A program made the position numbers and the translations under genes. A stretch of 64,000 bases of DNA from Dioscorea cayenensis subsp. rotundata (lineage: Eukaryota > Streptophyta > Magnoliopsida > Dioscoreales > Dioscoreaceae). The notes under the pieces are model-generated. The model ran no database searches and was not told where the DNA came from. It saw nothing but the letters and a program-made list of their open reading frames with translations. Location of the stretch: the NCBI RefSeq assembly GCF_009730915.1, contig NC_052481.1, positions 124,001 to 188,000 of the forward strand, in the 5' to 3' direction. The number at the start of each line of letters is the position of its first letter. Position 1 is the first letter of the stretch. Shown one piece after another: positions 13,055 through 50,715 of this stretch.

Positions 13055-16000
13055 TCATAAATATAGCTGAAGATCAAGGCTCAACCTGGGAGTTGGAATA
13101 GCAACAAGAGGCTCAGCCTTCTTCAAAACAATCCCAAACTTCTCAGCAAGATCAAGCTTATAACCAGATGGAAGCTCCCAATCAAAACCATGCAATAAAG
13201 TAGCCAAAGCATAGCCAACCATCCTCTCAGCCATGGAAATCCCAGCACAAATCCTTCTCCCAGAACCAAAAGGCAAGTAACTAAAATCATTCCCACTGTA
13301 ATCCCACTTACCCTTATCCAAACCCAAGAACCTCTCTGGATTTAACTCCAATGGATTTTCCCAAAGACAAGGGTCCCTATGAATAGCCCAAACATTGACA
13401 AAGACTCTGCTACCTTGAGGTACATAGAAGCCAGCAATGGTGGAGGGTGAGCTGGGGCAGTGAGGGATAAGGAGTGGAAGTGCTGGGTGAAGACGTAGTA
13501 CTTCTTTGATTATTGCTCCTAAGTAAGGTAGTTTAGAGATGTGGGACTCTTCAACAATGGTGTCCTTGCCTACCACTTTGTCAAGCTCTTCTTGTGCTCT
13601 TCTCATGATCTCTGGCTTCTTCATCATCTCCGCCATTGCCCATTCTACTGTGTTTGATGCTGTTTCCGTTCCACCCACCACCATATCCTGTTCATAAAAC
13701 ACACATCTTGTCTGATAATATAATATAAATATATATATATATATATATAGAAAGAGAGAGAGACTATATAGTGCATGCATGTAAGTTGGAGCAAGAGGAT
13801 CGGATTACTCACAGCTAGAGTTGCAAACTGGGCCGTGTCTGGCCTAACACGGACAGCTACCCAGACCAGGCTGGCACGGCACATATCTCTGGGCCGTGCC
13901 AGGCCACAGGTTGGTGGCCCGCGGGACGGCACGGCCCGCGGCCCGCCTGGGCTGGCTCAAGCACGCGGGCCAGCCCAACACGGCCCGCCACTAGCCGTTG
14001 CGGGCCAGCCTGGCACGGCCCACCATTTTTTTTTATTATTTATTTCTCCAACTATTTAAGTACAAGAAAATGACATTTATAACCCCTCTAAGTTCTAACA
14101 ACTATAAAACGGCTAGTTTTTAAGGCTATTTTAGACTTTGAAATATAATTAATTTTTTACCCCTTTTAACAACAATAAACGGCTAGTTTACAAGGGTATT
14201 TTGGAAATTAGAAAAATTTAAAAAACCTATATCTATTTGTAATTTATTTTTAATTTATCTCTATTTTTTCTATGTAATTTTCTATTCATGTAAATTTAAA
14301 TTTTTTTGCATATTTTTTAATTATTTTTTCTATAGTCTTTATGTGTTGTATATTTTTTACAATCAAGAAACTTATATTTTATGATATTTAGATTTTTTTT
14401 TAAAAAATTTCCTTAATTTTTAGTATTTTTTAAGTATTTTTTTTACAATTTTTACAATATTTTTAAAGAATTTACAAATTTTATATTTTAAATTAATTTT
14501 TTAAAAAAAAAGAGCCGCACTACCCAGCTGGCCTGGGCCGACCCCCTTGTACGGTGGGCCGTGCTGGGCCGGGTCGACCCATCTTGCACCTCTACTTATA
14601 GCCTCAGACGACCGATGGGATGTTTGTCCCTAACATGTTTGGTTCTTCAACTAGTCAAATTCCTGACTTTTTACAGTTTATATTGTGAAAAAAAAAAATT
14701 ATTTTATAGAAGTTAAAATTAGAGTTTAGATTGATGAATGCTCACATAAAAGGGACATCCATAGAATCTTTATTAGATTGAAATCCAACGGCTAACATTG
14801 GTGAACAATAAATGCTATACTAATATATATATACAGTAATTACTGTTTAAAATAGTATAATAAAGAGTAATACTATTCATCAATGTCGGTTATTGGATCG
14901 TGATCCAACGACTGATAATTATATGTCCATAGATTTTTTTTATCTATATATGGGTGTCTATAGAGGATGTAAATTCATATATATATATAGAGAGAGGACA
15001 TCCATAGATAAAAAATTTATAAATGTCCAATTATCAGCCGTTGGATGATGATCCAACAGTTGACATTGATGAACAATATTAATGTTTATTATACTATTCT
15101 AAATAATAATTACTGTGATGATTACTGTTTATCAATGTTAGTCATTGGATTCAGATCCAAAACCTGATAATAGACATTCATAAATTTTTTATCCATGAAC
15201 TTCCGTAGATGAATCTAAATCCAAAAGTTAATGATGAATATTTATAGATTTTAAATCTATAAACCTCCGCATCGAAATGATCCTCCTTTGTGTGTGTGTG
15301 TGTGTATAAACATTCATGGTGCACAAAACTTTTCTAGGGTTTTTTTAATTAGAGTGGGTGCATGTGAGTGTGCATGAGAGAGAGGAAAAGAGAGAGAGAG
15401 AGAGAGAGAGCTAACCATGAGAAGAGCTTTGACATGAGTCATGGTGAAAGGAGTAGTACTACTCTTAGCATCATCAGCTGCCCTCCTTCTCCAACCTCAA
15501 CATGAAATCCAAGAAATCCTTGTCTCCTCCTCCTTCTTGATCTCCTTCCTTCTTCTTCTGATCTATAATCCTCTTGAATATTCCATCAAATCTTTGCAAA
15601 TACTTCTTCATCTTCCTCTCAATCCCTTGCAAATCCATCCATCTTAATCTCTGAAAGAAATCCGATAAATTTGGTTGCCCTAAAAGCTCAGTGATCTCCG
15701 ACACCACCTCCCTGAACTCCTTTCCGACGGCGCTCCTCCCTTCCTCCCCTTCCACAGTCCCTCCCCACAGTGTGCTTGTTATCACGTTCATCACCGTCAA
15801 GAACATCTGAGCTCCGACATCCACCGCCTTGCCGGAACTATTCTTGAGATCCACCACCATCGCCCGCATCTCTCGCCGGCGGAGCTTATAGACGCCGTCG
15901 AGGCTAGCCTTGCTGAGCATCTCACGCACGCACACCTTCCGGAGCATCCGCCACGTTGGGCCGTTTGGTGACCAGGCGATGTCTGACGCGCCGTAAGCGA

Positions 16001-16322
16001 TGACGTGCGCCACCGCCGGCACGTCGCGGTTTGCGAAGATCGCGTCGTTGTCTTGGAGCACCTCCTTGGCGATCGCCGGTGAGGAGATGACGATGCCGAG
16101 CTTGGTTCCGAGCTTGATGCTGAACATAGGGCCGTAGGTCTTGGCTAACGAGGCGAAGTAGGTGTGGAGATCGGGGTCGAGGGAGAAGAGGCTGCCGACG
16201 AGGGGGAAGCCTGTTGGTCCCGGAGGTAAGGGAGATGATCGCCGGCGCCATCGCCGGGAAACGACGGTGAAGAAGCAGAGCAGTGAGAGGAGGGTGATGA
16301 TGGAGTAGAGGATAAGATCCAT
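13055..16322 (-). CDS. CYP706-like cytochrome P450, 2 exons, with one frameshift
   Basis: Exons are 16322-15416 and 13687-13055, joined by a 1728-base phase-0 intron (CTCATG|GTTAGC, GAACAG|GATATG). The start has an ideal context (CACCATGG). The N-terminus is a membrane anchor (residues 2-20) followed by the proline hinge PLPPGPTGFPLVG. In exon 2 are the I-helix GGTETAS, ExxR (KEVLR, 364-367), PERF and the heme loop FGSGRRICAG with the ligand near Cys449. Sequence around SNGPTWRMLRKVCVREML and TMTHVKALLM is typical of the CYP706 family (ER-bound mono-oxygenases, several acting on terpenes or phenolics). One extra base in the CCC run 15481-15483 (GGG in sense) shifts the frame 66 bases before the end of exon 1, and a stop then follows. 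Removing one base gives 512 residues, the normal length. It is therefore a very recent pseudogene or a sequencing error. Substrate unknown. Confidence 0.88.
13808..14602. mobile_element. Non-autonomous hAT transposon (MITE) in the P450 intron
   Basis: The element spans 13816-14594 (779 bp). Its ends are imperfect inverted repeats: the left begins TAGAGTTGCAAACTGGGCCG and the right, read inward on the other strand, begins TAGAGGTGCAAGATGGGTCG. Both subterminal zones are packed with GGGCC/GGCCC motifs while the middle is AT-rich and noncoding. It is flanked by 8-bp direct repeats, CTCACAGC at 13808-13815 and CTTATAGC at 14595-14602. These differ only by two C/T transitions, as expected for decay of methylated cytosines. 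An 8-bp duplication and TAGAG-type ends are features of plant hAT elements. Confidence 0.85.
14740..15260. repeat. Palindromic repeat cluster in the P450 intron
   Basis: Four related segments of about 75-100 bases lie at ~14751-14823, 14866-14990, 14995-15085 and 15118-15215. Each contains a core like GATCCAACGACTGATAATT or its complement, with TCAATGT and CATCCATAGAT nearby. Neighbouring segments are in opposite orientation, so RNA from this region could fold into long hairpins. It looks like one or two nested fold-back MITEs of unknown family. Confidence 0.6.
15287..15410. repeat. GT and AG microsatellites next to the P450 splice donor
   Basis: A (GT)n run at about 15287-15304 is followed by an (AG)n run at 15388-15410 that ends 5 bases from the exon 1 donor. 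On the coding strand this is a CT run directly behind the donor. Length changes here would be easy and could affect splicing. Confidence 0.8.
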
Positions 16323-16349
16323 GGTGATTTCTTGGTGCCCAAGACTCAC

Positions 16350-16675
16350 TCGCGTATTTAATGGTTTTTTTAATTCAATTAATGGACGGTGAGGATTTCT
16401 TTGATCTTGAGATATTCGAGATGCTTGGTTTTGTCTGATTTAATTCTTTGTACTGTTGTAGCCTTGTAGGTGATGACTTCGTTGTTTTTGTTTGATTTAT
16501 AAATGTGTGTATATATATCGAGATTAATTAATGTGAGAATGATATATTTCATGGAAATAAATATAATAATTATATATATATATATATTTGTTTATTTATT
16601 CATGAGAGTTGGAGGTGCTGAATTAATAGTCCTGAATTAAAAAATTAATATTCCAGGTTTAGTTTTGGTGTTATC
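16350..16675. other. Upstream region of the P450 gene
   Basis: This is the 5' flank of the minus-strand P450 gene. A TTAAATA box on the minus strand at 16360-16354 is too close to the ATG at 16322 to be convincing as its TATA box. A TA microsatellite lies near 16574-16589. Nothing else is recognised. Confidence 0.4.
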
Positions 16676-17242
16676 ATCTAGGTAGTTAAAACCGGACCGA
16701 CTCATTAAACCGAATAAAAATAAAATTCAAGGGTCAAGAGGTTCGATCGTGGTTGAAACTGGATTGAACTAAAATTTTAAAAATAAAAAAATATATAATA
16801 TAATATATTAAATAATAATTTAAATTTTAAATTAAATACATAAAATATATGTAACAAAACCAATCTCACAACATTTATCTCATATTTAAAATTAAAGACT
16901 TAAAATTCATGAATATTAAATCAAATAAATTTCATAAAATGATTCGAACATTAAAATTAAAAGCACAAGGCAAAAAAACAAAGTTTTACTTTTTGGCTTT
17001 AAATTTTGGCTTTTAATTTTAATTAAAAAATAAAAAATAAAATAAAAACAGGTGGTTCAACATGTGAACCAGGCCCGGTTCATCCGGTTCACGGTTCAAT
17101 CGCACTGTTCACACTATTTAACACTGGTTTTTAGCTGGACCGATTGTTTGGGTGAAAACCGGACCGTCTATATGACCGGGTATTATTCAACCCGGTCGAA
17201 CCGTCCAGTTTAACACGGGTTCGACTACATAGGTCACCATCT
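16668..17242. mobile_element. MITE-like element with CCGG-rich ends
   Basis: The left end reads AGGTAGTTAAAACCGGACCG at ~16679. The right end, read inward on the opposite strand from ~17231, reads CCTATGTAGTCGAACCCG. The interior is AT-rich and the ends are full of CCGGTTC and GAACCGG motifs. The flanks TTATCATCT and TCACCATCT look like a 9-bp target duplication differing by two C/T transitions, which would fit a Mutator-type element. Exact ends are uncertain by a few bases. Confidence 0.5.
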
Positions 17243-17403
17243 CCTTTATACTTATAAAATAGTTTTGCTTAAATTTTTAACTCTCAAATTATAAAAAAAT
17301 ATTTAATAAGTTAAATTATAAGAGTATTTAGTTAAATTATTTTTAATAAAAATTTATTTCTAATTAATATTTCACGATGCTCCTTTGAACATCTGTAGTT
17401 ATT

Positions 17404-17650: not shown

Positions 17651-17683
17651 ATGTTTGGATTTCATCGTAGGTTTCTAATTTTA

Positions 17684-17970: not shown

Positions 17971-18040
17971 TTTTCTCTGTTTTTTTTACTTGTCACATTT
18001 TGGAGCTCCTCTATGTTTTTTTTAACTTGTCACATTAAAA

Positions 18041-19003: not shown

Positions 19004-19035
<32 letters not shown>

Positions 19036-20591: not shown

Positions 20592-22722
20592 TTATTGACT
20601 AGCTTTACACTCGAAAGGTAAGTTGTCCAACCAGGTATCATCCAACATAAGGGATGAAGCTTCAGACTCTGTAGGCCACTCGGAACAAACATCTACTTCA
20701 TCAAAGTTAATGGGTTTGTTCTTCTTTTCCAAGTTCTGACTGATAGACTGTAGTCGGAGATTGCAATGTACAAAGACTAAATCACTGAGTTTTTCTAGTT
20801 CTAACTTGTTGCATTTCTTTGAATGAAGATGATCAAACATGTTCCAATTCCATTTGGACCAATATGAACTGCAAGGTTGGCTAAGAATCCGCATGGCAGC
20901 CCTCTGCAACACGGGAACTTCATAACCGTAGGCCGCCCACCAGTCGCCTAGAAGAAATATGTAGAAAATGAGGAAACAGAAATAAGTTAGCTAGATGAAA
21001 AGATCAAGAGCCGCGATAAAATAGAATTAGACCAGCTATTAGATTGGACAAGTACCGGGTGCATTCAATGTCCGTCCCATGATGGCGAATTCACTCCCGA
21101 GGGCACCCTGTGCATTTAAATACAATGGCTGCTCTTTTGTGAGTTCTACCCTCTCTTTCTCTTCAGGAAACATTTTCCACATGGCTGCATGGAAACCATT
21201 TCTCATACTCGCATCGAACTTGAAGTTTGGGTTATAGAAAATAGAGGGGTTTAAGAATGCTGCGGCAGTGTGTAAATGTGAATGATGTTGCATGTTCCAC
21301 CTCCTCTCAATAATTTCCGAAACAGGCAGATACTTCTCTCCACAGCCCTTGTAGAACATCTTAATAGCCAGTTTTGCCCTTTCTACACCTTCATACACAT
21401 ATCCCATAGCCGGCATGTCACCATCAACAATCCTCAAAAGTTTTATGAGGGGCTCTGACACACCAACAACTTCACGGGCGGATCTCCAAAATCTTTCTGA
21501 AAACAACAATGACCTGATCTGTTGCGCATCAGACCTTCGGCTATAGATAGATGACAACCAATCCGCATGAGAAAACATGTGCTTTAAGTTGTCTTCTTGA
21601 ACCACAATGGACCTCAAGGAAAGAAAATGAGTTACAAAACTATTGAGTTTAGGTCGCATCAATTCCATCCCTCCGTTAAATTTCCTCATCATATCCAACG
21701 CCCATGCATCACTGTAGATGAAATGCACTATGATCCCTGCCTCCGCCAGGACAGATTTAACCCATTCCTGCTTGTTGATATCTTCCAACATTTTCTCAAT
21801 ACAATAAGAAGCACATGGAGACCAAAATATCGAGGGGTACTTCTTTAATAGTAGCCCTCCCGCGCAAGCATAAGTCGTTGCGCTATCTGTTATGACTTGC
21901 ACAACATTCTCGACACCCACCTCCATAATAACTGAGTCAAGCAACTCAAATAAATAATAAGCATCATCTGAGTGAGATGACACGTCTACTGATTTCAAGA
22001 ACTGCGTCCCTTTTGGTGATGTGACAGAGAAAACTAAGATTGACTTCGACCTACCGTCTGACCAGCTGTCCAACAAAATAGTGCAGCCAGTCTCACGCCA
22101 ATCATCCTGCACCCTTTTATGAGTATCGTATATTTCCCCTTTCACTTTGTTCAAAAGATTTGATCTCAGTTGATCAAAATTTGGAGCCTTGTAACCTACC
22201 CCACACTCTGCTATTGCACTTACCATAGCTTGATAATGAATTGATTTGGAAGCACTAAAAGGAACGGAATTATGAAAGAAAAAAAGAGCGATCTTCTTGT
22301 CAGCATCATCATGCTTTTTTTCAGGGATCATCTACTGCATGTTGATTACTCGGTGATTGGCGGGGCAGTAATAAGGACGGACAAGAGCTTCCCTGCTGGT
22401 CACTCGATGCAGCATTATTAGCTGCAAAACCACCACTGGCGGATGAACTATTCTGTTTATCATTTTGTACTACATCCATCTTCGGTTTCTTGGCAGCTTT
22501 TTGCTTTTTGGGAGTGCTGAGTACAGAATGAATCATTTCCCTCACATCATCCGGCACTTCAGTGCATGGGATTATGTCCTTGTTCTTGATTTTAGCCAAA
22601 TGGAACTTCATTCTATAAACTCCTCCACTAAACTCACGGTGGCAATAGTTACATCTAACCTTCTGCCTCGTAGCATCAACCAAGACACAATGCTCCCAAC
22701 AAGCATCCCTTCCTCTGACCAT
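20592..22722 (-). CDS. Domesticated hAT-type BED zinc-finger protein (DUF659), one frameshift
   Basis: Coding exons are 22722-21056 and 20947-20592 (CACCCG|GTACTT, CTTCTAG|GCGAC). The N-terminus MVRGRDACWEHCVLV carries a BED finger with C24, C27 and H41. A low-complexity linker is followed by a DUF659/RNase-H-like transposase core (GCTILLDSWSDGRSKSILV, VVQVITDSATTYACAG, FWSPCASYCIEKMLEDI). Exon 2 gives the hAT C-terminal dimerisation region (DWWAAYGYEVPVLQRAAMRI). The protein closely follows a single-copy plant family kept under selection, so it is a domesticated transposase, probably a nuclear DNA-binding regulator. One extra base in the run 22324-22326 (CCC in sense) shifts the frame between AVDDP and EKKHDDADKK. 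Removing one base gives 673 residues, the family's usual length. Confidence 0.87.
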
Positions 22723-25677: not shown

Positions 25678-25900
25678 ATGGAAATCTCCAAAACCCTAGC
25701 GCCGATCTCTCTCCCTTAAAGATCAGCAGGGCTAGGGATTCATGGATATCATCGCGCGCCATGGTTCTCCTCCTTCGTCCACTCTCCCCTTTCCCCTCTC
25801 ATCGCTTGCATTGCAGGGTTGCCCATCGGAAAGGTCCGGCGAGAGTGGTGGCGGTGGTGAGGAAGGAAGAAGGTGCCTCTGTTGTCTGGTTCAAGCATGA
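25678..25900 (+). promoter_or_regulatory. Two upstream ORFs before the photolyase-hydrolase start
   Basis: A 13-residue upstream ORF occupies 25678-25719 (ATG to TAA). A second one starts at 25742 and stops at 25900. It overlaps the main ATG at 25761 in another frame, so ribosomes using it cannot reinitiate at the main start. Both would lower translation if they lie in the leader. The transcription start is unknown. Confidence 0.5.
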
Positions 25901-28900
25901 TTTGAGGATTGATGATCATCCTGGTCTCGTGGCGGCGGTGTCCCAGCACCGGACTGTCGTCCCCTTCTATGTCTTCGATCCTCGGATGCTCTCCGGTTTG
26001 CTCTTATTCCTTTTCAATTTTTATCAGTGAATTGTGGTTTTTTGTTACTCTTTTTTGCTTATTCATCGCAGACACTATGATCTTATTTGCTCGAAATGCT
26101 TGTCTTTTTCTTGCTTCTTTGGTTATCAGAGTTTTTTTTTCACATTTTGTTATTTTTGGAATGATAGGAAGTGGAGGGGTTTGAATGTATTTGAAATGTT
26201 TGAGTTAAAGGGAAGCATTGATCTCATTAATGTTAGAATGATGTTTGAAATATGTAAAGGCGGATAACTAGGCTTAACCTTCTTCAACCAGCACAGGAAA
26301 TATGGAGTGTGTGTGTTTTACTTACTGCAAGGACTTGAATCTCCTCAACTAGAGCAAAAGACAAGGAATATGTTTGATTGGTTGTCTACTTCTAATTTGC
26401 ATTGAATTTTCAGTAAATTTTGTGAATCTTTTAGTTTATCACATAATCTGGTGTCCAGGTTTTTCTGATGAAATGCTGGAATTGCTCCTCTTTGCTTTGG
26501 AAGACCTGAGGAGGGTATTGAAAGAACAAGGATCTGATTTGCTTATTGGCTATGGAGCTGCAGAAAAGGCTGTGATTGAACTTGTGAAAAAGGTATCTTT
26601 ACAATTGTATTTTTATGAATCTATACCTGAAGTGTCAAAACTCACCATCATGCTTCTAACTTGTCTGTGTTGAACCCTTTAAAAACTAGCTATTCAAATA
26701 AACATCGGTATTTAACAGGTTAAAGCAACCCACATATTTGCAGAAGAGGAGGTGGACTACAATGTTCGCAGGGTAGTTGATAGTGTGCATGCATCTCTGC
26801 TAGATAAATCTTTCTCATGGGGAAGCCCCAAGCTAAACATCTGGAAAACTCCATTTTATGAAATTAAGGTAGTTGCTTTTGTCTTTCTCAGTCTGTTCCC
26901 TGGCAGTCGAACTCTTGATGTGTAACTTGATGCCAGATGCCTTCTGGTGTAGGATCTAAAGGAGACCCCTACATCATGTGTTGACTTTCAAAAGCTTCAA
27001 CTGCCTGTAACAGCTCCTCTTGCATCCCCTGTCTTACCTGTGCTAAATACAGATTTGGAAAGAGGTGAACTTTCAAGTTACTTCTGCTCTTAAGGTCCTT
27101 TTCTCCGATTCAAAATAAAGTGAAATTTCTTATCAACTTCCTATTTGTGTGGCTTATCCTCTTGCTTCATTCAGTGTTGCTAGTTGGCCTATTTTGGCCC
27201 TCTGACATGTTTGTTTGGTCATCTTTCAGCTGTTCTTCTAATTGTTAGTATACTGGTGAAGATGGATAATGTGAATCCTTTTGTAACATACATATGATTT
27301 TTCAATTCTTTAGGCACTTTACCTGCATATGATTATCTGAAAAGGTACATTGTAGAGAATATTTCCAAGTCAAATGAGAGCTGGAGTTCTCTCAAGAAAA
27401 CATCAGCCAAAGCCATTTTAAAACAGGGACAAGTAAACCGAATTAATGTGAAAACTAAATTTGCGTCGGGGCTTGAAGAAGCCAAGAAAAAAATTATGAG
27501 TCCTCATTGGTTCTGGAAAAGACTCAAAGGCGAAAATCCATGAGTTCTCTATTTGTAGAAGGAGGAAATCAAGTGTGTGGTGGGACAGATGCTGTCTTGA
27601 ATGCCTTAGCTGCTTATTTGAGATATTTGGAGGGAACTGCAAGATATGATTGGCAAGAGTATGTAACAGTTTATATATAAGTTGTCTTAGAATTTATTAC
27701 CTTTATCCTCTCAAAAGAATTTATTACCTTATTTTCTTTGTGAGTTAAGGTTTTCTTTTAAATTTAATTATCTCTATCTAGCTGTGTTTTAATTGATTAA
27801 TACATTGCAGATTTTCTGTTGATTTATCTACTGATGTTGCTTTGAGCGATATCATTTTGACATGTTCCTGTATAACTTTGATCAAGTTTTTTTCTGAGAA
27901 TAGCCATATATCTCAAATAACTGCCCTATCCTTCTTTTTGAGACCTCCAATTTCTTGGTTTTCTATCTTCAACTTCCTATCATCTCTCACTTAATTTTGT
28001 GTGCTTTGTTTTGGTTTTCTTCCTGCTGTTAGCTGTTTCATTATCAACGTATCTTCCTATAGTTTCATGTGATTTTGTCTTATTTAAATTTAGTTTGAAG
28101 TTTGAACCTCTTTGTTGTTATCTGGGACGCCACCTTCTAAACAGTGTGGTTTCCATAGCGATGCTTTTTTTTTTTGCAGCTTTAGAGAAAACAGTGTGGG
28201 CTTTAAGTTATCATGTGTCCTCTAATTGTAATTCAATTTTTAGTTCTTACTTGGTTTCATGTAAAGTTATAAAACTAAAATGCCTATTCATTGAGTTTGA
28301 TGTTAACGGTTTTATAGCAGAATAAATAATAAAGGCATATAGTTTTTTACTCTGAATTTTAAAGTTGAATTAGATTGTTTAAATCATTGACAGATTGCAT
28401 CAGAAGCTACGTGAAGCTGAAACTAGGAAGGGGGCCTCATTTGGCGTGCTGTTTGGGCCTGCCCTTCGCCTTGGCATTATCTCTAGGAGGAGGGTTCACC
28501 ATGAAGCTCTCAACTATGAGAGAGAACGCAATGGTGGCTTTCTATCTCCATTTGGTTACTCAGCACTCACTGTTATGGCAGCAGTTGAAACTGTCTGCTC
28601 AATGGAGGTATATGTTATATACCTGGAGCTTAAATAACTCTCTGCTGTTAATTAGTAGGACTGTATTTTTGTTAAGTTGATTTGGTGGGAGCACATTTAT
28701 CTGTGCTTAATCCCATGCTTTTTCAACAAAATCAATTATCACACTGACATGACAGGCGACTTGTTGCAGTGGTATTCTCTTTTGGCTTTGAAAAGCCAAA
28801 TCTGCAACAATGAACTTTATCCAATTAGGATATGGAGATGGAATGGTTATCTGATCCAGGTAAAATGAAGCATGGCTTACTGGCTTATGTTTTTTATGTT

Positions 28901-31900
28901 ATTATGATGGAAGATTTCGTACCACTTAGCATTATACCTGTGGGTGATATTGTTATATTGATAGGAAAAAGAAGTGCGTAATTTGCTTTTCATGCAACAC
29001 AGAAGTCCTTAACATGTGTATATCAAAATTAATCATGTATTGGTTTTCTCATTTATGCCTCTTAAAAAATTATTCCATATATATTTATTTATATTGATTT
29101 TATGCTATAAATACTTTTAGTTTTAGTAAGATGTATGTGCTGAAGTGGGCTTTTGCGCTAATTTCTTTGGATTCTGTCTTTTCCACATGTCTTAATTGAA
29201 TTAGGAATCATGGACAACTCTGGCATCATCCTTCCCCAGTTATATAATTGTTGAAATCTATACTGCATCATGTCATTGCAAGTATAGTGATTCCTGTTTA
29301 TTTCTCACATAAGTATTTGCTTCTTGCAGTACACAGCTGTTGGCAAAAAAGGTCCTGCAGTTCTACTTGTTCATGGTTTTGGAGCCTTTTTGGAGCATTT
29401 CCGTGGTAATTTATCTAGCATGGCCAATAATGGGCACCGTGTTTGGGCACTTACCCTTCTAGGGTTTGGCAAATCAGAGAAACCAAATATCCCTTATACA
29501 GAACTTTTGTGGGCTGAATTGTTAAGGGATTTTATTATTGATATTGTAAGTGAGCCAGTTCACCTTGTGGGGAACTCAATTGGTGGTATGTTCTCTATCT
29601 GTAGGATTGTGCATGAAACTTTCTTCCATAAATCAATATTCCTGGGGTCTGGAGTATATTAGCAAAATTCTATCTTATAGTTACTTACTTTTCCAGGCTA
29701 TTTTGTTGCAACTGTTGCTGGACTTTGGCCTGTTTTGGCCAAGTCAATCGTTCTTCTAAACACGGCAGGTTCTGTTGTTCCAGGCTATTCTTCTGCTCAG
29801 ATAATTACTGAAGTAAGACCATCTAGTTGCCAAATCATAATGTTATCAATCGAAGTATTAACTGACTTATATGTCCATGTTCCATTATTTTGTCTGTGTT
29901 CACCTAAATCTCAGATATTAGTTTGCACTTCACACTGACTAGTTGACTTAAAGTGTCAGAAATATTAGTATGTGCGTTTGTGTATTTATGTTTCTTAACC
30001 AGTTTGAAATAAAATTAAGGATTCTGGCTTATGATCTTGCTAGGCCTTTGCTGTTGGTCATGCAATGTGGACGCTACATTCTGCATCATTGACCTTTTTG
30101 AATACTTAGATGTTTCTGTTGCCTACTATCTTGTAAATCGGACTTTGTATTAAATGGAAAACATGATTATTAGGTGTTTCATTTATTTATAGGCTCAACA
30201 AGCATCTGCTATCATGTGGCTTGGGTCTCGCCTCTTATTATGGTACCTGAGATTAAGAGCTGGCAGTATTCTGAAGGAATACTATCCAACTGTATGTGTA
30301 GTGTCTGCCTCATCCTAAATGGTGCACATTCCTCCAATTAGTATTGATTTTGGAGTCCCTGTTTTTCTTGCAGAATTCAGAGCGGGTTGATGACTGGCTA
30401 GTCAATGAAATACTAAGAGCAGTATCCTCATTGACAAAGATTGCAATGGTGAATCAGTAGCTGCTATATGAGTTAATTGCTTATATACTGCTCTTGAAGA
30501 GGAATAATGTTGCCGTTTGTATGAGTTAATTGCTTATATACTTGTCTTGAAGAGGAATAATATTGCCCATAGAATCAATCAGTCCGCATGTGCATATAGA
30601 TTTGTATGATTATTTTATTATAAGGCAGTAGCGATAAAGTTTGGAAATTTGAAATTGTTTTGGAGGGAGTACTTTTAACCAGACTTTCACTTAACTAATA
30701 CTAATTGAAATAAATATTTTAAGATTAAAAATTTACTTTTCTAATTAATTATAGTAATATTATTTTTTAAAAATAAATTAATAAATATCTTTGTTTAAAT
30801 ATTTAAGGCTTGTAAGAGAATATTTATGGGGGGTAACTTTGGGTGTTTGGTTTGTGGTTTGAGGGAATCCAGGGGTACCTGGGGCCCATAGCCAATCATA
30901 GCCTTTTGGTTTAGTCCATTTAGCAAGGCTCGAGATTTCACTATTAGTTATATTTCCTTAGCTTCTCACTTGAAGCTGCAATGTGCCTGTTCCATGCTAC
31001 TCATTTCTGGTATTCTATTTAAGGTGCATCTTCACATGAGACTAATTTTGTTAATTTTCTCTTGACTTGCAGAGGAGAGTAGATATTGAGCTTCCATTAC
31101 TCTGTTTATTAGTATTTTTGACACAGCAGACTGATTTAAATTAATCCAATTGTAGTAAATTTAACTTCAATATGTTTTCTTACTTGACAATTGCTGGAGC
31201 TGCATATTTCCTTTGTGTGTGTGTGTGTGTGTGTTTGTGTGTTTGTTATGTCGTCCTTGACATTCTCTAGTCATATGATCCTGGAGTGCCTATAGTTATG
31301 GAAAGTGTAGTCAACTTCAACCTTTCAGTCCCTCTCAATTATCTGGTAGAGTCTTTTGGAGGGAAGGTGTTGATCATACAGGTAATTGCTTGATTTATGC
31401 AGATTGAGTTTCAATGTAGCTGATGGCTGCTATTATTGATCATGACATCTCTTTGGGAACTTAGTTTTCATTGATCATTCAGGGTATCAAAGACCCACTC
31501 TCCAAATCCAGATTGAGATTATCCATGTTTTGGGAGAATTGCAGTGGGGCTACAGTCAGAGAATTGGATGCAGGTAACCGTTTAACTGCCCTTTCTTGCA
31601 AATTCAATGTTAAATCTTGGTTTCTTTCACTTTTATATCCTAAAGAAACAGCTTGTTTCCTTGGGTAAGCCTGATCATTTCCAAATTTCCATCTGGGTGA
31701 TAATATTGCTCATATGTAGTTGTTTGTTAGCACTATAATGTTTTGGATTTTCCTTAATGCCAAAATTACTATTGGCTTGTGAAAGTTGAGGTCAGCCATT
31801 TGTTATGCATACAAATCACTTAAATAATTTTTCCTATTATAGTTTGTTTTACTTAAAAATTAAATCCTTATTCATCTTGTGGTTGACATGTTTCAGGCCA

Positions 31901-31997
31901 TTGCCCCCATGATGAGGTGCCAGAGGAAGTGAATTCTATACTTTATGATTGGGTAAAAACAACTGAAAGTAGCAACTATGCTGTTGAAAGAGTATAG
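25761..31997 (+). CDS. Photolyase-like domain fused to alpha/beta hydrolase, 14 exons, one frameshift
   Basis: Exons: 25761-25995, 26459-26592, 26719-26868, 26953-27064, 27314-27658, 28394-28607, 28770-28859, 29330-29585, 29697-29812, 30193-30291, 30374-30421, 31271-31381, 31483-31573, 31897-31997. All junctions are GT-AG with agreeing phases. The first ~32 residues look like a plastid transit peptide. Residues ~40-180 are a photolyase/cryptochrome antenna domain (SVVWFKHDLRIDDHPGL, VVPFYVFDPR). The FAD-binding half is absent. From ~428 there is an alpha/beta hydrolase: oxyanion HGFG (442), nucleophile elbow GNSIGG (Ser510), Asp641 and His669. The family matches Arabidopsis At4g25290 as I remember it. 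One base is missing in exon 5 near 27498-27510, so the frame reads into TGA at 27541. Adding one base gives 700 residues. Biochemical role is unknown; a plastid hydrolase with a vestigial light-sensor fold is inference. Confidence 0.88.
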
Positions 31998-32500
31998 TTG
32001 TGATTATTTTGTAAATATATTACTATTTTTTCGAGGGAAGTGCAAGAATATATAATGTGTACATCAATACCTTCCCCAAATTAAGTCTTCAATTTTTTTT
32101 CCTCTACATTAATGTTACGCTCAAAATTAATCTACAATTTGTCATTTAAAGTACATGTTCCGTCTTTTAGGATGCTCCAAATGCTTGGAAGCCTATATGT
32201 AGTCTGCACCCTCTTTACGAACTGTTGCCAAGTTCATGGATCATTAGAAATTTGCTCTGAGTTTGACCAAGTGGGAATTTGGGAGATAATCCAAAAATTT
32301 GGGTGGATAGTTAGACCATGAGATTCAGGTCTATCCATCTACAGCCAATTTAAATGGAAGTTATTTGTTAATATATTATCTCTTTCTACTAGCTCTTGAA
32401 TCAATATCATGAATGAGAGTAAATGATAAACTAGGTTTTGGCAGGTTTGATTGGTTTGTTTGCTTTTCCTTTTTACCTGAATGAAAGAGTTTTATGTTAT
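31998..32500 (+). other. 3' UTR region of the photolyase-hydrolase gene
   Basis: After the TAG at 31995-31997 the sequence stays transcript-like in composition for several hundred bases. At 32171 an AG (TCTTTTAG) precedes an open frame, DAPNAWKPICSLHPLYELLP, that runs about 29 codons to a TGA. It could be an alternative last exon or chance. No sharp poly(A) signal cluster was identified. Confidence 0.3.
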
Positions 32501-32504
32501 TAAT

Positions 32505-33715
32505 GTTTGTGAGATCAAGGTTGTAAATCAATTTGGTTTTGTACTTGGAAGGCCAACTATAGAAGCAATTTATATTTTAAGGTTATTGATGGAGAAGTAT
32601 ATAGATAGAAAGAAAGATTTACATATGATCTTAATTGATTTGAAAAAGGCATATGATAGGGTGCCTATGGAGGTCCTTCGGTGGCCTCTAGAAAAAATGA
32701 GGTTACTTCTAGGTACATAGACCTTATACAAAATATCTATGATAGTTCTGTCACTAGCATTAAAATCTGTAAAGGGAGAGTTTAGAGAGTTCTCCATTAC
32801 TATGGGTCTACATTAAGGTTGAGTATTAAGCCATTCCCTATTTGCTTTAGTTGTGGGTCATCTGACTAAGCATATTCAAGATCAGATCTTTTGATGCATG
32901 CTTTTCACCAATGTTGTGATCTTAGTTGATGAAAGTAGGGAAAGTTTCAACTTGAAGTTGGAGATGTGAGGAAACACTTCAGAAGATTAAGGTTTTAAGT
33001 TAAGTGGGGTAAAATTGGAATATTTGAAATATAATTTCAGTAATAAGGAGGAGGACATAGGGAGTTAGGATGGATACTGAAATTGGTAGAAGTAGAAGTA
33101 GAAGTTTTGGGTAATCTAGGCTTTATAATCATAGAGGACAGGGAAACTTATAGAAGATGTCACATATAGGACAGAGACCGGTTGGATAAAATGGAGGGAG
33201 TGCTTATGGAGTTTTATATGTTTGGAGAATATCATTTAAATTGAAGGGTAAGTTCTATAAAATAGTTGTTAGGGCAACTATGATGTATGGATCAGAATGT
33301 TGAGCTGTTAAAAAAAATCTACTTAAAGAATAAACATGGTTAAAATGAGAATGTTGAGATGGATGTTAGGTGTTATTAGGAAGGACCGATTAAGGAATGA
33401 ATTTATTCGATATAGACTGGGAGTGGGAATGACACATATCATTGACTGATAAGTTAAAAGAAAATCGATTAAGATGTATGGGCATGTCCTTAAAAGACCC
33501 TAGATGCTCCCATGAGAAAGTGAGAGCTCTCAAAGTGGAAGGTCATAGAAGGGGAAAATGCAGACCTAGAAGGTGTTTAGCGGAAACTTTATGTAAAGAT
33601 ATGGTAGTTTATCTAGTCTTTTGGTCCTTAATAGAGCAACATGGAACGGAAAGATTTTTGTAGCCTACCCTAAATAGTTGAGATTAACGGCTTGTTGTAG
33701 CTGCATTGTATTGTC
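32505..33715 (+). mobile_element. Decayed LINE (non-LTR retrotransposon), 5'-truncated
   Basis: The left part reads NQFGFVLGRPTIEAIYILRL, then KKDLHMILIDLKKAYDRVP, which is a reverse transcriptase with the first catalytic Asp of the palm (LIDLKKAYD). Further on, broken by many stops and shifts, come pieces like SLFALVVGHLTKHIQD, MLFT, and an end reading CTAAATAGTTGAGATTAACG and GGCTTGTTGTAGC, the normal 3' end of this plant LINE family. The FADD box is degraded (the position reads near MLFTN). It is sense-oriented with respect to the upstream gene and long dead. Confidence 0.8.
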
Positions 33716-38831: not shown

Positions 38832-39790
38832 TTGCAAGGTCTTTTCTCTCTCTATGTACTTCCCTTCGTTGCACTCTTACTCAAGCATTCCATCATCCAT
38901 TTCGTCAGATCCACACTAAACTGGTGCTAATGCACATGACAATGAAACCACACCTGGTCTTGGGTTCTCTTTCACTCCTTTTGAGTATTATTGTGTTATT
39001 TATGAACACATGAAATTTATCAGGTATGAGAATAATAGGTTGTCTGAAACACTTGCAATTATGCATACCACCTTGAATTGTATTGTTCTGATTGCTTAGA
39101 TAGAAGGTTTTGTGGTAGTGTACTTTAATCTTGTTTGGTGGGCGCTCATGTTGGTAAGATTCAACAGTTTTTTAGTTGCTTTGCATGCATGTCAATCTTT
39201 CAATTGGTTTCACTTTTAAGTAGTTGCAACATTACTACCTGGAGATTTCTAGGGAAATAGATTTATTATGGTTGTTCACCGAAATTATAACCCCACCAAT
39301 TCATCTGTTAATGTATATATATTATCTTCCAATTAATGCATTAGAAATTTTATTTAGAATGTTAGAATTGCTTAGTAATGATGGAGAAAAATTACCAAAG
39401 CTAAATTGAAATATTCTTCAAAATTTTAAACTACTATAGAATTTAAAAACTTAAAAGAGTTTAATTCATGTAGACTGCGTACTTATTTACTCAACATGGT
39501 ATGTACCTCTTGGAAGTTGAAATCAAAGTTCCTTAGCTTAAGTTTAGGTTGAGGTCTTCTTTGCTTGATATGTATCTATGTATATATATATATATAAATC
39601 TTTTGTTTTTGGGTCAAAGTGTTCATATCCTAAAGACGTTGGTGTTACTGAACACTTAATGGATCTCCAATTGTGGGCGTGGCTTTGTAACTTTAATCAT
39701 GTGCCATTGGATGAGGACACACGTGCTAGATGATTAATTCTTGATCTGTGTGGACCCGCACTTGTTGCAAAAATAAAAAAAACTTTTATT
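38620..39790. other. Upstream region of the MYB gene, no other gene seen
   Basis: A TA microsatellite of ~30 bases is at 38796-38826. The rest is mixed AT-rich sequence. A plausible CACGTG-like core occurs near 39719 (GACACACGTGCTAG). No coding exon is supported. Confidence 0.5.
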
Positions 39791-39793
39791 TTT

Positions 39794-40530
39794 GATAAAT
39801 ATGAGAGGACCCTTAGTTTAAATAAATAAAAAAAACATTACGTGTCTTATTGAGAGTTGCGTAACATTGTGGAATATGTATGCCATTTAATTATTATTTT
39901 TGTACTTTTTTAATTTACTTGTGAAATTGTGAGTTATTTGGACCTTGAAAAGAAGGGGTCCGTGCTTATCTATATTATTTAAATGGTTAGGCGAAAGACA
40001 TAAAAATGTGATAAATGTGATGTTTTATCATATTTATTTTTAATAAATATGAGAGGACCTTTAGTTTAAATAAATAAAAAAAATATTACGTGTCTTATTG
40101 AGAGTTGCGCAACATTGTGGAATATGTATGCCATTTAATTATTATTTTGTACTTTTTTAATTTACTTATGAAATTGAGAGTTATTTGGACCTCGAAAAGA
40201 AAGGGTTCGTGCTTATCTATATTATATATTATTTAGATGATTAGGCGAAAGATAAAAATGTGATAAAATGTGATGTTTTATCATATTTATTTTTGATAAA
40301 TTTGAGAGGATCTTTTAGTTTAAATAAATAAAAAAACATTACACGTCTTATTGAGAGTTGTGTAATATTTTGGAATATATATGCCATTTAATTATTATTT
40401 TATACTTTTTTTAATTTACTTGTAAAATTGAGAGTTATTTGGACTTTGAAAAAGAAAGGGTTCATGCTTTATTTATATTATTTAGATGGTTAGGCGAAAG
40501 ATAAAAATGTGATAAATGTAATGTTTTGGC
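39794..40530. repeat. Three tandem copies of a ~250-bp repeat
   Basis: Units begin at about 39794, 40042 and 40295 with (G/A)ATAAATNTGAGAGGA. All contain ATTACGTGTCTTATTGAGAG or close variants, GGAATATGTATGCCATTTAA, TTATTTGGACC and TTAGGCGAAAGA in the same order. Copy-to-copy differences are scattered substitutions and 1-3 base indels, so the array is not brand new. There is no coding capacity. Each unit carries an ACGTG core in the first two copies. Confidence 0.92.
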
Positions 40531-44017: not shown

Positions 44018-44055
<38 letters not shown>

Positions 44056-44134
44056 ACTGTTGAATGTTGATTTACGGCTCTTATATATTTTTATAGATTT
44101 CAAAATTTACCAATGTTCATGGATGATGCGTGCC

Positions 44135-44182
<48 letters not shown>

Positions 44183-44840: not shown

Positions 44841-47800
44841 TTACAAAGGGTGATGCAATAAAGAAAATATATAATCATCAAGCATTGGGAGGTGATGGTT
44901 ATCATCATTATAAGAGTACATAACTCTAACCATCCTTGCAAGATTGAGGGTTGCATTAATTAAGGGTTGAGGAAATGAGCTTTGAGTGAAGCTTTCTTTG
45001 TTAAGCGCATCCCATGTTCCGGAGATCATCAACATCACATGTTCCTGAGCTTCTTTTGCAGTGCATTCTTGATTTTCTTTCATGTATAACTCCATGTATG
45101 ATCCATCAAACCCTTTTTGATTTTCATCCTGCCATCCATAAATAAACCAATTCAATTTTTTTCAATTTTTTTTTTACTAACAAGTGACAAATATCCCCTA
45201 TTTAAGAGATTATCAAAAGAATAAACAGATACAGAGATGCACTAGTTACGGTGGGTGAAACTACGGTTTCCGCTACATGATATTCACACTCAGACTTATG
45301 AACAGTATTGGACCCAAATGTACAGTGCATGAACATTAAAAAAACAGTTCTGCCGGGTGAAAGATTCGACCCTTTTGCCCTCCTCTTTGTATTCTTTATA
45401 TCATATCATTAGGCTATCTAATGATGGACACTTTTTCAAAAAATTTCGCTTCAATGCTTGACACTCAATGAATAATATATTTTTATTTCAAATAAGTCAA
45501 ATATCGGTAAATGAATGTACATAGAAAATAGAAATTTTGAGTAAAAATTTGGAATGAAATATTTGATTAATATATTTATGTGTTGTTTTTGTTAAAAGCA
45601 AATCAATCATATTATTTAGATCCGTTTTAACCTAAAGCTTAAGTTAATAAAATTAGAAACCAAATTTTATATAATCAAATACATATTTTCTAAATTAACC
45701 ATTGTGAAATTTTTTTAGTTACTCGACTAAATTTTTATGAAGTAAGAAATAAAAAATGGTGAATAAAATGAGGTACAACCGTACAAATTAATTAAAATAC
45801 CTCCGTGCATGTATATTGAAATAAATGGAAAAAAAAACAAAAGTTGAATAAAATGAAAATTGTGAAGAGAAAAAGGTATAATTAATAAATTAAATAATAA
45901 TACCTTGGCACTTCCTAAATCATCCCAAAGGCGCAGAATAGTCCCTGATTTAGAAACAAAGCTTGGATCATTCTCTATATGTTGTATGTTCTCAAATGTT
46001 AAGCCTTGCCCCATTAGAAAAAATAAGTGCACTATTACTATGAAAACTCCTGAACTAGTCACTGCATTTCTCAAGTATTCATCCTTGTTTGGTATTTGTT
46101 TTGATGCAAACCACTTTGCTTCTTGAAGGAAAGCATTGCACAATTTTCCCCACTAAAAGCAAAAAGAAAAGAAAAAAAAAACATATCATTGACAAATTAA
46201 GCTCGGTTGATCAGTTTTGAATAAAATATTAAATAAAATATAAATAAAAATAATTGATATGCATACCGATTTGCTTAATGTGTTAATAGGATTCCATCCA
46301 TATTCTTTGAGAGTTATTTCAGCGATCTCATTAGTAACATTGTATAATGCATTAAAACAAACCTTCATGTAATTTGGAAGGTTATTGATAGCTGAAATAT
46401 CCCACCTACAAGTAAATAAATAAATATATATATCAACTCATGTAATTTGGAAGGTTATCGATAGCTGAAATATCCCACCTACAAGTAAATATATATATAT
46501 CAACTATTAAAAAATATTTTTAATTGAAAAAAAATATTTAGAATTTTTCTATATATATATATTATTGTTTCTATATAATAATAATTTTTTTTGACTAATA
46601 AAGCAACAAACTCTCTCAATTAAGAGATTGTCAAAAGAGACAAATAGATATAGAAATGTATCAATTACGGTGGCACAATATACTTATTTAACATCATTTA
46701 AACATGAATGAGAAATAAGTATATGTAAATTTTAAATATCTAACAAGTCATATATAACTATAATGAAAGCAAAAAGTCTATAATCCTATTCATCGGTGAG
46801 TGTGTGTGTATATATATATACATATGCTTACTTGTTGATGGCTTGAGTGAAAAGAGAGAGTTCATCTAGGGTTCCATAGACATCAAAAATATCATCTATT
46901 ATGTAGATGAAGGCAATTGCTTTTGTGAGCTCAATTCTACACTTTGAATGATGTGGCTGTGGAACCATTGTCAAAGGCCACATGTACCACTTCAATGGTT
47001 GGTCCCTCACAAAGCTCAGCTCTTGTGCCAACCCTGCCTTCTTCCACCAACTACAACAGAAAATAAAAAGATTAAAAAAAAATCAAGATAAAATTATTTA
47101 GTTTCTATCTAACATTATGTTTAACAATATTCATTGCTTTTTATTATTATTGTTAGTGCAACCGCACTATAATTGGTATGATTTGACACCAAAGACAAAA
47201 TGGCAAGGAATCTTATCTTGAAGGCATATATTTTGACGATCTTGGTGAAGCTATTTTTGATAATGTGTTACAATTTGAAGACAAGATCATATCAAGACCA
47301 TATTTAGTGATATTTGATTGGAGACTAAATATGGGTGAAAGCTTAATTGAGGAAATACCTATCAATGGTATTATTGAAGACTATTGAAAGTATGATTTGA
47401 AGAAGTCTTAATAGATTGATGGAAGACTATTAAGGGCAAGATTTGAAGACATGTCTATTGTTGGCATGATTGGGTTGATTGATTAAAGATCTTTCTTAGG
47501 AAAATTTGAAGAGCAAACTTGGGTGAATTGAAGATCAAGTTTGGTAAGTTTCGTGAAGATGCACAAGGATGTGCGCCCCCTGCGAGGAGACTTATTTCGT
47601 GGCGAGAAACTGAGGAGGTAGCTAGTTGCCGGTAGTTGGAATTTGGAGATCGGGCTGCACCGACTCAGACTAAGCATGACTGGGAGGTTGATGGGTCTTG
47701 AGATCGTTTGCAACGTAAACCGTAACTCACCAACTCAGCAGATGCAGCTATATTACAATTTATGTTACATACAGAGTCGAACAACTAATTTTGGAAAGTT

Positions 47801-50584
47801 TTTAAATTAGCAACCATGAGATTCTAAAAAGAGTATGACTGCTATATTTTGGACGTATATGCTTATATAAGCTCACCTTTCTAAGATTGGAGTGGAGGAG
47901 AGTGCGTGAGCACTGGACAATCTAGAGAGGTAGAGTGATCATTATCATAAGAGCATAGTTATCGACTGCCCGGCATCGACCCGGCCAAGGCCTCGGGTCA
48001 CGGTCAATTGGTTCAACCGTCGGGTCATTTTAGGGTTAATCATCGGTTAATAAAAAAATATTTTTAAAAATATTAATTTTAAAATTATAAATTAGTTTTT
48101 TTAATTATATAATGATATATCATAATAATATCCATGAATTATTAGTTATCAAATAAATAATTTGATGGAAAAAAATACAAAACAATTGCTAATCTTTGAT
48201 TTGGAAGTAGTAGAAAAGAGTGAAAAAGCTCAAACTTCACATAATATCAATACATAACAATACTAATTCACAATAAAAGTTTTAAATTTATCATCAAAGA
48301 TCAAACCAAACTCAATCCAATATATAACCAAAGTTCAAAATTGAAATTACAAATCAAACCGGTCAATTGGTCTCGACCACGGGTCAATCGGTTCGACCGC
48401 CGGGTCAATCGGTCCCGATCACTGGTCAACCGGGCCTAACCACCGGGTCAAAGCGGGTCAATGCGGTCGAACGGGTTGATTGCATAACCGGCTCCACTTT
48501 AAAGCACCCGGACCGGCTCAAGCACCGGGTCACCGGTCAATCCCGGTCCCGATCACCGGCCGGTCCCGGGTTTGATAACTATGGTTAAGAGAGTGAGTGA
48601 CAATTGTTTGTACTAATCTATTTTCACCTCTTTTAGTGGATTATTTATCTCCCGGCTCGACCCTCGGATGTAGCCATGGACCGAACCCAGCTACTAATCT
48701 TGTGTGTCTCCTTCTTGTTTGGTTTGTGTGAGCTTTCTATAAGTATTTGAGTGTTCTCTAAACCACAAATCACATCGGCAAAACTAACCATTATTATTAT
48801 TATTATTTTAATAATCTAAGGGCATTAAAGTAATTTTAAACTTTATGCTATCATTGTAAGTGATTATATAAAACTCTTATACACAATGACTGCAAAAGCA
48901 AAACATGAAATAAAGCAAATGAATTAATTTTACCTTAGGATTGCATTGAGCTCTCTCTGATGCAAGAGCTGAACAGCATTGAACTCACTCTTAGCTAATT
49001 CAAACACCACATCTTTGCATCCTCTTTCATCATCTTGGTGCATGCTAATATATCTTCTAGCTTTATATCTTTGTATGCTCATATGATAAGGGTGCTCTAA
49101 TGTTTCCTTCACTTGATTTGCATGCTTATTATCCAACCATTCAATAGAATCCCAAAGATGCTTACTTGAAAACTCCTTGCCTTTTCTTAGTATATCTTCT
49201 CCAATGTTTAAATGTGAAGCTTCATACAAGCTCATCAAACCTTTTATATCCTTACTTGAAGCTAGTTTAAACTCTCCATTCTTATCAATGAACTTCTTGA
49301 GCATCTCTACAAATTAATACATATTTTTATAGTTAAATAAAATTTAATGGAGTTGATATGCAAGAAGAAGAAGAAGAAGAACTTACTTGGAGATACACTA
49401 TAACCATGCTCTCTGAATAATCTAAAGAAAAGAGAGGATTCAAACAAGTTATGACGTCCATGATCTCTTTGATGAGTAAAGTTGTCATAAATGGATGATA
49501 AGGTTGAGCCAATTTCCTCCTTGAAAAGATGATCAAGTCCCATGTATTGAAGTGTGTCTATTAACACCATGGATTGCAATGGAGTCTTGTTGCCTTCTTT
49601 GGAGAATAACATGTCTCTCACCATTGATATGTTCTTTGAATGATTGATTTGTAAAACACTCTACACATGACCAAACGAAACATTTATGTAATTAAAGATA
49701 AAGTGTCTGATATTTGAGCACTATACCATGCATACATGAGAGAGATTTTCAACCACTTGTTTTTTGAATTGATTTCTGTCTAATATCATCTACTCACCGA
49801 CAAAATTATGGATCCCACTCATAGTTGGAATCTTTTCATTCTCAAAATGCATTTCTTTTATGTGAAGAAAGAAAGAAAAATATTTCTCAACATAAACTAA
49901 TGCAATTACGGTAATGATAGAACAGTTAAAATATTTGACTCCTATATAAGAGATCAAAGATTGAATTTTCTCTTAATAAATGGTTGAAACATAAATAATA
50001 TGTACAGTAACTCGAATATTTTATATAAAAATTAAAATTATTTTGGATTGATTTTTGTGGTAAACATAAGCCATTATCTTATGTTTTTGAAAAAAAAAAG
50101 CACCTACTAGTGTCGTTGGTTTAATTTTCTTTCATAGCATGGTTAAAAATCATATGTGTGGGATATGTGGGTGTGGAGTCTTTGTCTGCATTGTAAAAAA
50201 TAAATATATAAATATACATTTGAAAAAAAAAGCACTTGAGTCTAATCTTTGTTTAATAAAATACTTTGCTAATAACTAATGAGAACACAAAAACTATTTA
50301 GCTTACTAGCAAAGAAACACTTACATTAGAAGCATTTATATAAAATTTTTTAAAAAGAAAAACACTTACTTCATAAACAAATCTTTACCATAGGAAGTAG
50401 TTATAGTTTTTTTTTTTGTTTCATTTTAATGAAAAACAGGCATGCATTTGAAGGCTCAAGGAGAAGATGAACATGATTAAACCTGCCTTGGAATAGAGCC
50501 CTTGTGAATTAGGGAAGAGGAGATGGTGATGGTGATCAGAAGAGATGGTTTTGCTGCTGTTTGGGTTTGTGTGAACTTGTGCAT
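44841..50584 (-). CDS. Terpene synthase, TPS-g-like, 7 exons
   Basis: Exons: 50584-50483, 49660-49387, 49306-48934, 47050-46832, 46405-46267, 46152-45904 and 45128-44841. All are GT-AG and in phase, giving 547 residues. The class I metal motifs are both present: DDIFD at 302-306 and the NSE/DTE motif DDLGSAKDE at 446-454, spanning the last intron. The N-terminal RRx8W motif is absent. Together with [18 protein letters not shown] and [13 protein letters not shown] this points to the TPS-g group, which makes acyclic alcohols such as linalool or nerolidol. The seven-exon pattern is the normal one for TPS-a/b/g. The chosen start (MHKFTQTQT) keeps the frame through exon 2 but leaves an atypical leader; see the finding on a second leader frame. 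Product specificity cannot be read from sequence. Confidence 0.88.
45165..45430. repeat. Dispersed repeat R1, copy in terpene synthase intron 6
   Basis: The segment opens with TTTACTAACAAGTGACAAAT, then TTTAAGAGATTATCAAAAGA, AGATACAGAGATGCACTAGT and TACGGTGG. The same ordered set occurs three more times in this locus (46590, 51165, 52285). Later in this copy come AACTACGGTTTCCGCT and AAGATTCGACCCTTTTGCCC. No coding capacity and no class-defining ends were found. Confidence 0.65.
46366..46490. repeat. Tandem duplication of the exon 5 splice acceptor in the terpene synthase gene
   Basis: The 52-base stretch 46366-46417 (first bases CATGTAATTTGGAAGGTTAT) is repeated at 46439-46490 with one mismatch, period 73. 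It contains the last bases of intron 4, the acceptor TTGTAG and the first 40 bases of exon 5. The copy nearer the gene's 5' end is an upstream decoy acceptor. Using it would give a stop shortly after (NLPNYMS then TGA), so the inner copy must be used for a functional product. Confidence 0.9.
46590..46682. repeat. Dispersed repeat R1, short copy in terpene synthase intron 4
   Basis: The phrases TTGACTAATAAAGCAACAAA, AATTAAGAGATTGTCAAAAG and AAATAGATATAGAAATGTAT followed by CAATTACGGTGG match the order in the copy at 45165. It is truncated after about 90 bases. Confidence 0.6.
47151..48790 (+). mobile_element. Probable solo LTR in terpene synthase intron 3, carrying a nested MITE
   Basis: The segment begins TGTTAGTGCAACCG and ends AAAACTAACCA, matching the short inverted TG...CA ends of an LTR. 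Near 47868 there is GCTTATATAAGCTC, a TATA box in the right place. Downstream comes the U5-like text typical of plant Copia LTRs (GGATGTAGCCATGG, CGAACCCAGCTAC, CTTGTGTGTCTCC). No primer-binding site or internal region follows, so it is a solo LTR. Subtracting the 630-base MITE at 47954-48583 leaves about 1010 bases. The flanks are ATT microsatellite, so the 5-bp duplication cannot be defined. It explains why this intron is 1883 bases long. Confidence 0.55.
47946..48591. mobile_element. MITE nested in the solo LTR
   Basis: The element spans 47954-48583 with terminal inverted repeats beginning CATAGTTATCGACTGCCCGG on the left and CATAGTTATCAAACCCGGGA on the right (reverse strand). Subterminal zones are dense in CCGGGTCA and GGTCAATCGG motifs. 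The flanks CATAAGAG and GTTAAGAG agree at six of eight positions, a possible 8-bp target duplication. The interior is AT-rich and noncoding. It resembles the element at 16.7-17.2 kb in its CCGG-rich ends, but the termini differ. Confidence 0.7.
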
Positions 50585-50715
50585 AATCTAATGGTGGTTG
50601 ATGGGGTGATGATGATGCGTGGAAGTTGAAGAGAGGCAAAGGAAGAGAATGAAGGGAGAAATGTAGTCTGAGATATTATAGAGATTGAGGAGAGGTTTGT
50701 ATTCATTGTGATCAT
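50536..50715 (-). other. Transit-peptide-like leader frame upstream of the terpene synthase start
   Basis: An ATG at 50715 opens a 59-codon frame rich in Ser, Thr, Ile and Arg and almost free of acidic residues (MNTNLSSISIISQTTFLPSF). That is the composition of a plastid targeting peptide. It stops at 50536, inside exon 1, in a frame different from the one joined to exon 2. It overlaps the ATG at 50584. Either it is an upstream ORF or it is the true leader, put out of frame by an indel. Confidence 0.4.

Follow-up and report, generated by a model that had tools for sequence, protein, structure and literature searches.

The window analysed here, 64,000 nucleotides at positions 124001-188000 of contig C11 in the Dioscorea cayenensis subsp. 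rotundata assembly (NC_052481.1, GCF_009730915.1), contains several genes whose reading frames are broken by a single base. Do these breaks belong to the plant, or to its printed sequence? The gene content of the window is that of plant DNA, and Rfam at gathering thresholds gave no match. The assembly from which the window comes (584,211,761 bases in 2249 contigs) could itself be searched for paralogs and control families.

Exons were rebuilt one by one. As the preliminary description had it, the printed sequence exhibits one frame break each in a P450 gene, a BED gene and a photolyase-hydrolase gene. The exon sums are off by exactly one base in each case (1540 nt, 3n+1; 2023 nt, 3n+1; 2102 nt, 3n-1), and the lengths proposed for the three products (512, 673 and 700 aa, respectively) fit the rebuilt sums. 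The earlier remark that the three genes carry no second lesion also holds for the rebuilt exons, in which we saw no other in-frame stop and found the splice sites clean.

The P450 gene, which we take to be CYP706-like, is made of two exons:

Positions 15416-16322, reverse strand: P450 exon 1, rebuilt, holding the frame break; its upstream-frame piece matches positions 1-249 of the Pfam p450 profile.
Positions 13055-13687, reverse strand: P450 exon 2, intact; it continues the downstream frame of exon 1 in phase (Pfam p450, 4e-62).
Position 15480, reverse strand: base that aligns as extra against the intact paralog L002, adjoining GGG at 15481-15483.

Read from 16322 to 15416 and from 13687 to 13055, the exons encode 512 aa and a stop, with one base in excess. 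The P450 profile (PF00067) matched on both sides of the break, and both frames are open over 15477-15496. When the downstream-frame tail of exon 1 is spliced to exon 2, the match to the solved structure 5ylw begins at chain residue 286, not 293, and the match to 7x2q begins at residue 261, not 276. Since the splice thus lengthens the matches to solved plant P450s, the downstream frame is the coding frame at the tail of exon 1. Two P450 paralogs in the assembly, L002 (at C15:2.89 Mb, intact and 85% identical) and L003, keep an open frame through the break site. The +1 shift had been placed at 15481-15483; the shift is indeed printed, but in the alignment to L002 the extra base is the C at 15480, beside the GGG run rather than in it.

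The BED gene likewise has two exons:

Positions 21056-22722, reverse strand: BED gene exon 1, holding the frame break, with zf-BED upstream and DUF659 downstream of the break (profile search).
Positions 20592-20947, reverse strand: BED gene exon 2, intact, with the hAT dimerisation region (profile search).

The three regions zf-BED, DUF659 and hAT dimerisation were found in that order, and the exons sum to the 2023 nt given above as 1667 + 356. Both frames are open in exon 1 over 22324-22331 only. The sole run of three in this interval is CCC, so that the +1 earlier located at 22324-22326 keeps its place. It is the one break of the three pinned to a three-base homopolymer, whereas the preliminary description had put two of them in such runs.

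The third gene is the largest:

Positions 25761-31997, forward strand: photolyase-like plus alpha/beta hydrolase gene of 14 exons and 2102 nt (rebuilt exons, profiles).
Positions 27477-27540, forward strand: interval of the one-base break, in exon 5 (27314-27658), with both frames open; it holds a run of seven A (A7) at 27487-27493.

Its internal exon boundaries all exhibit the ag/.../gt pattern. A photolyase N-terminal profile and then a hydrolase profile were matched in successive exons of one gene model, which suggests that the exons would form one transcript. A missing base near 27498-27510 had been proposed. The break is there, but this site is just one possibility within 27477-27540, a stretch that also holds the A7 run, and codon usage within the interval gave no preferred site.

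Could the genes nevertheless work as printed, with alternative splicing or programmed frameshifting getting round the breaks? The A7 run, judged by eye, could in principle allow slippage in the photolyase-hydrolase gene, and one candidate bypass intron was identified there. This intron, however, removes 278 nt, including open sequence on either side of the break, and the same criteria yielded 0 candidate introns at the P450 break and 0 at the BED break. No run longer than three occurs in the P450 or BED intervals, and the intact P450 paralogs manage without any such device. We therefore consider bypass extremely unlikely. The same low standing is given to the view that these are old pseudogenes. 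Broken frames are what it would predict, but the splice sites are intact and no second lesion was found. The contrast is provided within the window by a reverse-transcriptase-like remnant at about 32.4-33.7 kb, of which, by eye, short pieces are all that is left.

A fourth lesion had been suspected in the leader of a terpene synthase gene. The relevant features are as follows:

Positions 50487-50715, reverse strand: terpene synthase leader exon (ends inferred); the part with the ATG and the exon-end part aligned to paralogs lie in different frames.
Positions 49387-49660, 48934-49306, 46832-47050, 46267-46405, 45904-46152 and 44841-45128, reverse strand: terpene synthase exons 2-7, 1542 nt open, 513 aa.
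Positions 46365-46500, reverse strand: 73-bp tandem duplication with 95% matches, lying across the splice acceptor and the start of terpene synthase exon 5.

Exons 2-7 match solved terpene synthases. The suspicion is supported by three intact paralogs (L044, L045 and L048), whose leaders stay in a single frame throughout; a fourth paralog, L046 (C11:1.33 Mb), is itself broken. Against the paralogs, the leader carries a net excess of one base near 50547-50559. A fragment lying at 53063-53155 and sharing 85% identity with the leader was also considered; it would have placed the lesion at a TT. This placement was rejected, as L044, L045 and L048 all have the base in question; the fragment has a missing base of its own, and the terpene synthase gene itself has its net extra base further along.

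For this gene it is less clear than for the other three that the rest is intact, and the terpene synthase may truly be decaying. A mixed account would then apply: assembly errors at the P450, BED and photolyase-hydrolase breaks, real decay in the terpene synthase. At the end of the terpene synthase leader exon stands GC, in contrast to the GT of the aligned paralogs, and the 73-bp duplication covers the exon 5 acceptor. Both observations have a harmless reading, however. If AAG/GCAGGT serves as a GC donor, exon 2 stays in phase; and with the acceptor of the second duplicate, exon 5 is intact, exons 2-7 being open over 513 codons. The mixed account overlaps with the explanation that we prefer, and we regard it as a serious contender, though at somewhat below even odds.

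The paralogs also allow substitutions to be compared with single-base gaps. Between the window terpene synthase region and L044 there are 123 substitutions and 7 single-base gaps, and the window is thus not an error-dense patch. Other blocks look natural in their ratios of substitutions to gaps (L044/L047, 32:3 and 29:3; L044/L045, 37:5 and 16:4; L044/L048, 70:12 and 7:0). L046 compared with L044, on the other hand, exhibits 74 substitutions and 43 single-base gaps in 1958 columns, and 14:7 in another block. Because some blocks of L044 look natural while L046 is gap-rich, errors appear to be patchy in the assembly.

For the BED and photolyase-hydrolase genes no such comparison can be made, there being no usable paralog in the assembly: the BED search returned three short weak matches only, and the photolyase-hydrolase stretch has no DNA match in the assembly besides itself. 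For these two genes the reading as error would draw on the assembly-wide pattern.

Most GRAS regulators lack introns, and the family is conserved. A search of the assembly gave 63 GRAS matches, from which 44 loci were read (30 returned and 14 fetched); C5:9244504, C976:199123 and C10:23447775 were left out as weak. The domain continues in another frame in 13 of the 44 loci, the call being less clean in five of the 13 (L020, L027, L035, L066, L069). At L019, L023, L034, L064 and L068 the gaps were taken as introns or insertions, so that these loci are tallied among the unbroken ones; a stop is also present in L034 and L075. With L073 and L074 omitted for multiple breaks or fragmentation, the GRAS rate is 13 frame changes in 42 loci and about 48.3 kb of domain, or 0.27 per kb. 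The window has four frame changes in 10.7 kb of coding sequence over seven reading frames, including a 713-codon frame that has no family assignment, or 0.38 per kb. The two rates differ by no more than chance allows (P of four or more of the 17 = 0.37). In the printed sequence the frame breaks exceed chance, yet they are not special to the window. Pieces of a broken GRAS gene can together reach scores like those of an intact gene (203+220 bits for L070, 337+91 bits for L029).

Other families vary in how clean they are. Among the best 16 of 40 PF08392 matches, 15 contain no stop and one is accompanied by a partner piece in a different frame; lower down, a few matches also look split, and some of these contain stops. 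Since PF08392 is cleaner than GRAS, the rate of frame changes is uneven across the assembly. PF00562 was tried as an essential-gene control and dropped because its matches were too broken up, probably by introns and by organelle-like copies.

The nature of the GRAS frame changes can be judged where nearly identical copies exist. L029 and L032, both on C15, share 97.8% identity across 3607 aligned columns and differ by 29 substitutions and 32 single-base gaps (30 and 30 under other settings). The single frameshift of L029 and the two of L032 are private extra bases, absent from the partner copy. A third copy, L073, has 69 substitutions and 36 gaps against L029, and 66 and 46 against L032. The seemingly shattered L074, on a contig of 21.6 kb, matches the unbroken L071 at 98.9% identity; the two differ by 5 substitutions and 13 single-base gaps.

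These proportions can be set against Arabidopsis figures from PMC8145854, as excerpted here. In natural accessions 10,707,430 SNPs stand against 1,424,879 indels, and the SNV:indel counts are 31:8 and 60:10 for control lines. The share of indels is larger in heat and warming lines (69:29, 54:20, 130:53 and 88:35). The indels tallied in these excerpts are not of single bases only. At an indel share of 0.26, that of the pooled lines in the same excerpts, 32 gaps among 61 differences (L029/L032) would have P = 9.6e-6, and 13 among 18 (L071/L074) P = 5.4e-5. At 0.30, about the share of the heat lines excerpted, the values are 2e-4 and 2.7e-4, respectively. Judging from such comparisons, the assembly has patches rich in single-base errors, and probably a lower background elsewhere. 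The window has no near-identical copy; the high gap ratio occurs elsewhere, in L029/L032 and L071/L074, and the private frameshifts in L029/L032. It counts against the reading as error that GRAS frame changes are backed as errors in the near-identical copies only. So do the five less clean GRAS calls, the cleaner PF08392 family and the raised indel shares of the heat and warming lines.

The direction of the shifts is skewed. The one-extra-base kind accounts for 11 of 13 GRAS shifts and three of four window shifts, that is 14 of 17 (p = 0.013), +1 and -2 being indistinguishable by frame alone. For nine of the 13 GRAS breaks the interval is readable, and its longest run is five bases; the photolyase-hydrolase interval, with its A7, has a longer one. 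At the remaining four (L035, L067 twice, L069) no interval has both frames open, and five of the 13 breaks have no spanning paralog match. Homopolymer lengths of the window exhibited no clear platform signature. The bias towards extra bases and the short runs are somewhat easier to reconcile with random insertion errors than with replication slippage.

The main competitor to error is that the breaks are young, real null alleles, with one recent single-base indel per gene in the individual sequenced. Each gene carries a single lesion and nothing else was found, and the window lies outside the error-dense patches. P450s and terpene synthases, moreover, are family genes prone to loss. But three or four independent recent hits would be needed among the seven frames checked in 64 kb, one of them, that in the photolyase-hydrolase gene, in a stretch that matches no other DNA of the assembly. 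GRAS regulators would, by the same account, have to carry nulls at a comparable rate. The excess of extra bases does not fit well either, as new Arabidopsis indels, in the excerpted part of PMC8145854, are more often deletions in heat and warming lines, a tendency that the control lines lack. We consider this origin improbable. Slightly more improbable still is that at least two of the three frameshifts in the P450, BED and photolyase-hydrolase genes are real in the plant. In that case single-base indels in a single plant would have caused several neighbouring genes to be lost or to become conditional, perhaps in the heterozygous state beside intact alleles.

Watson and Warr (2019) are said to have described residual consensus indels in long-read assemblies. 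The breaks resemble such residual long-read indels, as these are cited in the consulted parts of PMC7501810 and PMC12007338, in that small indels break otherwise intact genes, many per assembly. They differ from the examples seen in PMC12007338, in which deletions outnumber insertions and insertions are not tied to a particular homopolymer; here extra bases dominate, mostly at short runs. With frameshift pseudogenes and null alleles of plant families they share a frameshift in a family gene that has intact paralogs (P450, terpene synthase). Unlike frameshift pseudogenes, the P450, BED and photolyase-hydrolase genes exhibit no further decay that we could find, the frequency is similar in GRAS regulators, and private frameshifts occur in near-identical copies elsewhere in the assembly.

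Because GRAS frame changes occur at a like rate and near-identical copies are gap-rich, a consensus indel error is the best reading for the P450, BED and photolyase-hydrolase breaks. We put the probability that all three are single-base consensus errors, the true loci most likely having intact frames, at roughly 85%. The earlier preference for assembly error over long-standing decay is thereby supported by the frame changes across the assembly, the gap-rich near-identical GRAS pairs and the open-frame P450 paralogs. At these exact three sites, we infer the error from the pattern elsewhere. The reading as error is strongest for the P450 gene, with its two intact paralogs, and weakest for the terpene synthase. 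Single-base errors would have stayed wherever the consensus was incompletely corrected, and the break in the terpene synthase leader may have the same cause as the other three or may be real.

With 13 of the 44 GRAS loci read changing frame, counts of pseudogenes and of gene losses taken from this assembly could be inflated. In practice, frameshifts of this assembly need checking against reads before they are given a biological interpretation.

The leader of the terpene synthase gene (44841-50715, minus strand) carries AAG/GCAGGT at 50481-50490, where the aligned paralogs read AAG/GTATAT. On the strength of this replacement, the leader would end either at the donor of a GC-AG intron or at a donor that has been lost. 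The phase with exon 2 is preserved at the GC site. Exon 5 of the same gene presents two acceptors, lying within a tandem duplication, and readthrough from the first of them would run into a stop soon after. Farther along, a leader copy adjoins an assembly gap, and further parts of a second terpene synthase may therefore be hidden or lost there:

46365-46500, tandem duplication of 73 bp (95% matches), covering the splice acceptor and the start of terpene synthase exon 5
53063-53239, incomplete copy of the terpene synthase leader
53240-54239, assembly gap of exactly 1000 N

Single-base gaps against near-identical copies are very frequent elsewhere in the assembly, in L046 (a terpene synthase copy at 1.33 Mb of C11, the contig carrying the window) and in L074 (a GRAS copy on another contig, C918).

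Among the matches listed, the P450 intron stretch 15000-15212 and the upstream flank 16322-16500 recur at many assembly sites. Many copies of the intron stretch match it in both orientations at one and the same site, a pattern that would be expected of a palindromic MITE-like element. Directly downstream of the photolyase-hydrolase gene, a decayed remnant in short pieces (32400-33700) presumably resembles LINE reverse transcriptase. The window also holds an open frame, for which no Pfam match was found, and tandem duplications of high identity outside the modelled exons:

7944-10085, open frame of 713 codons
11106-11211, short tandem duplication of 56 bp
30467-30567, short tandem duplication of 53 bp
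39785-40527, tandem duplication of 248 bp in three copies

The P450 (13055-16322), which we take to be CYP706-like, lies about 30 kb from the terpene synthase, and additional terpene synthase copies are located on C11 at 1.06 Mb and 1.33 Mb. Together, these genes possibly constitute a terpenoid gene neighbourhood.
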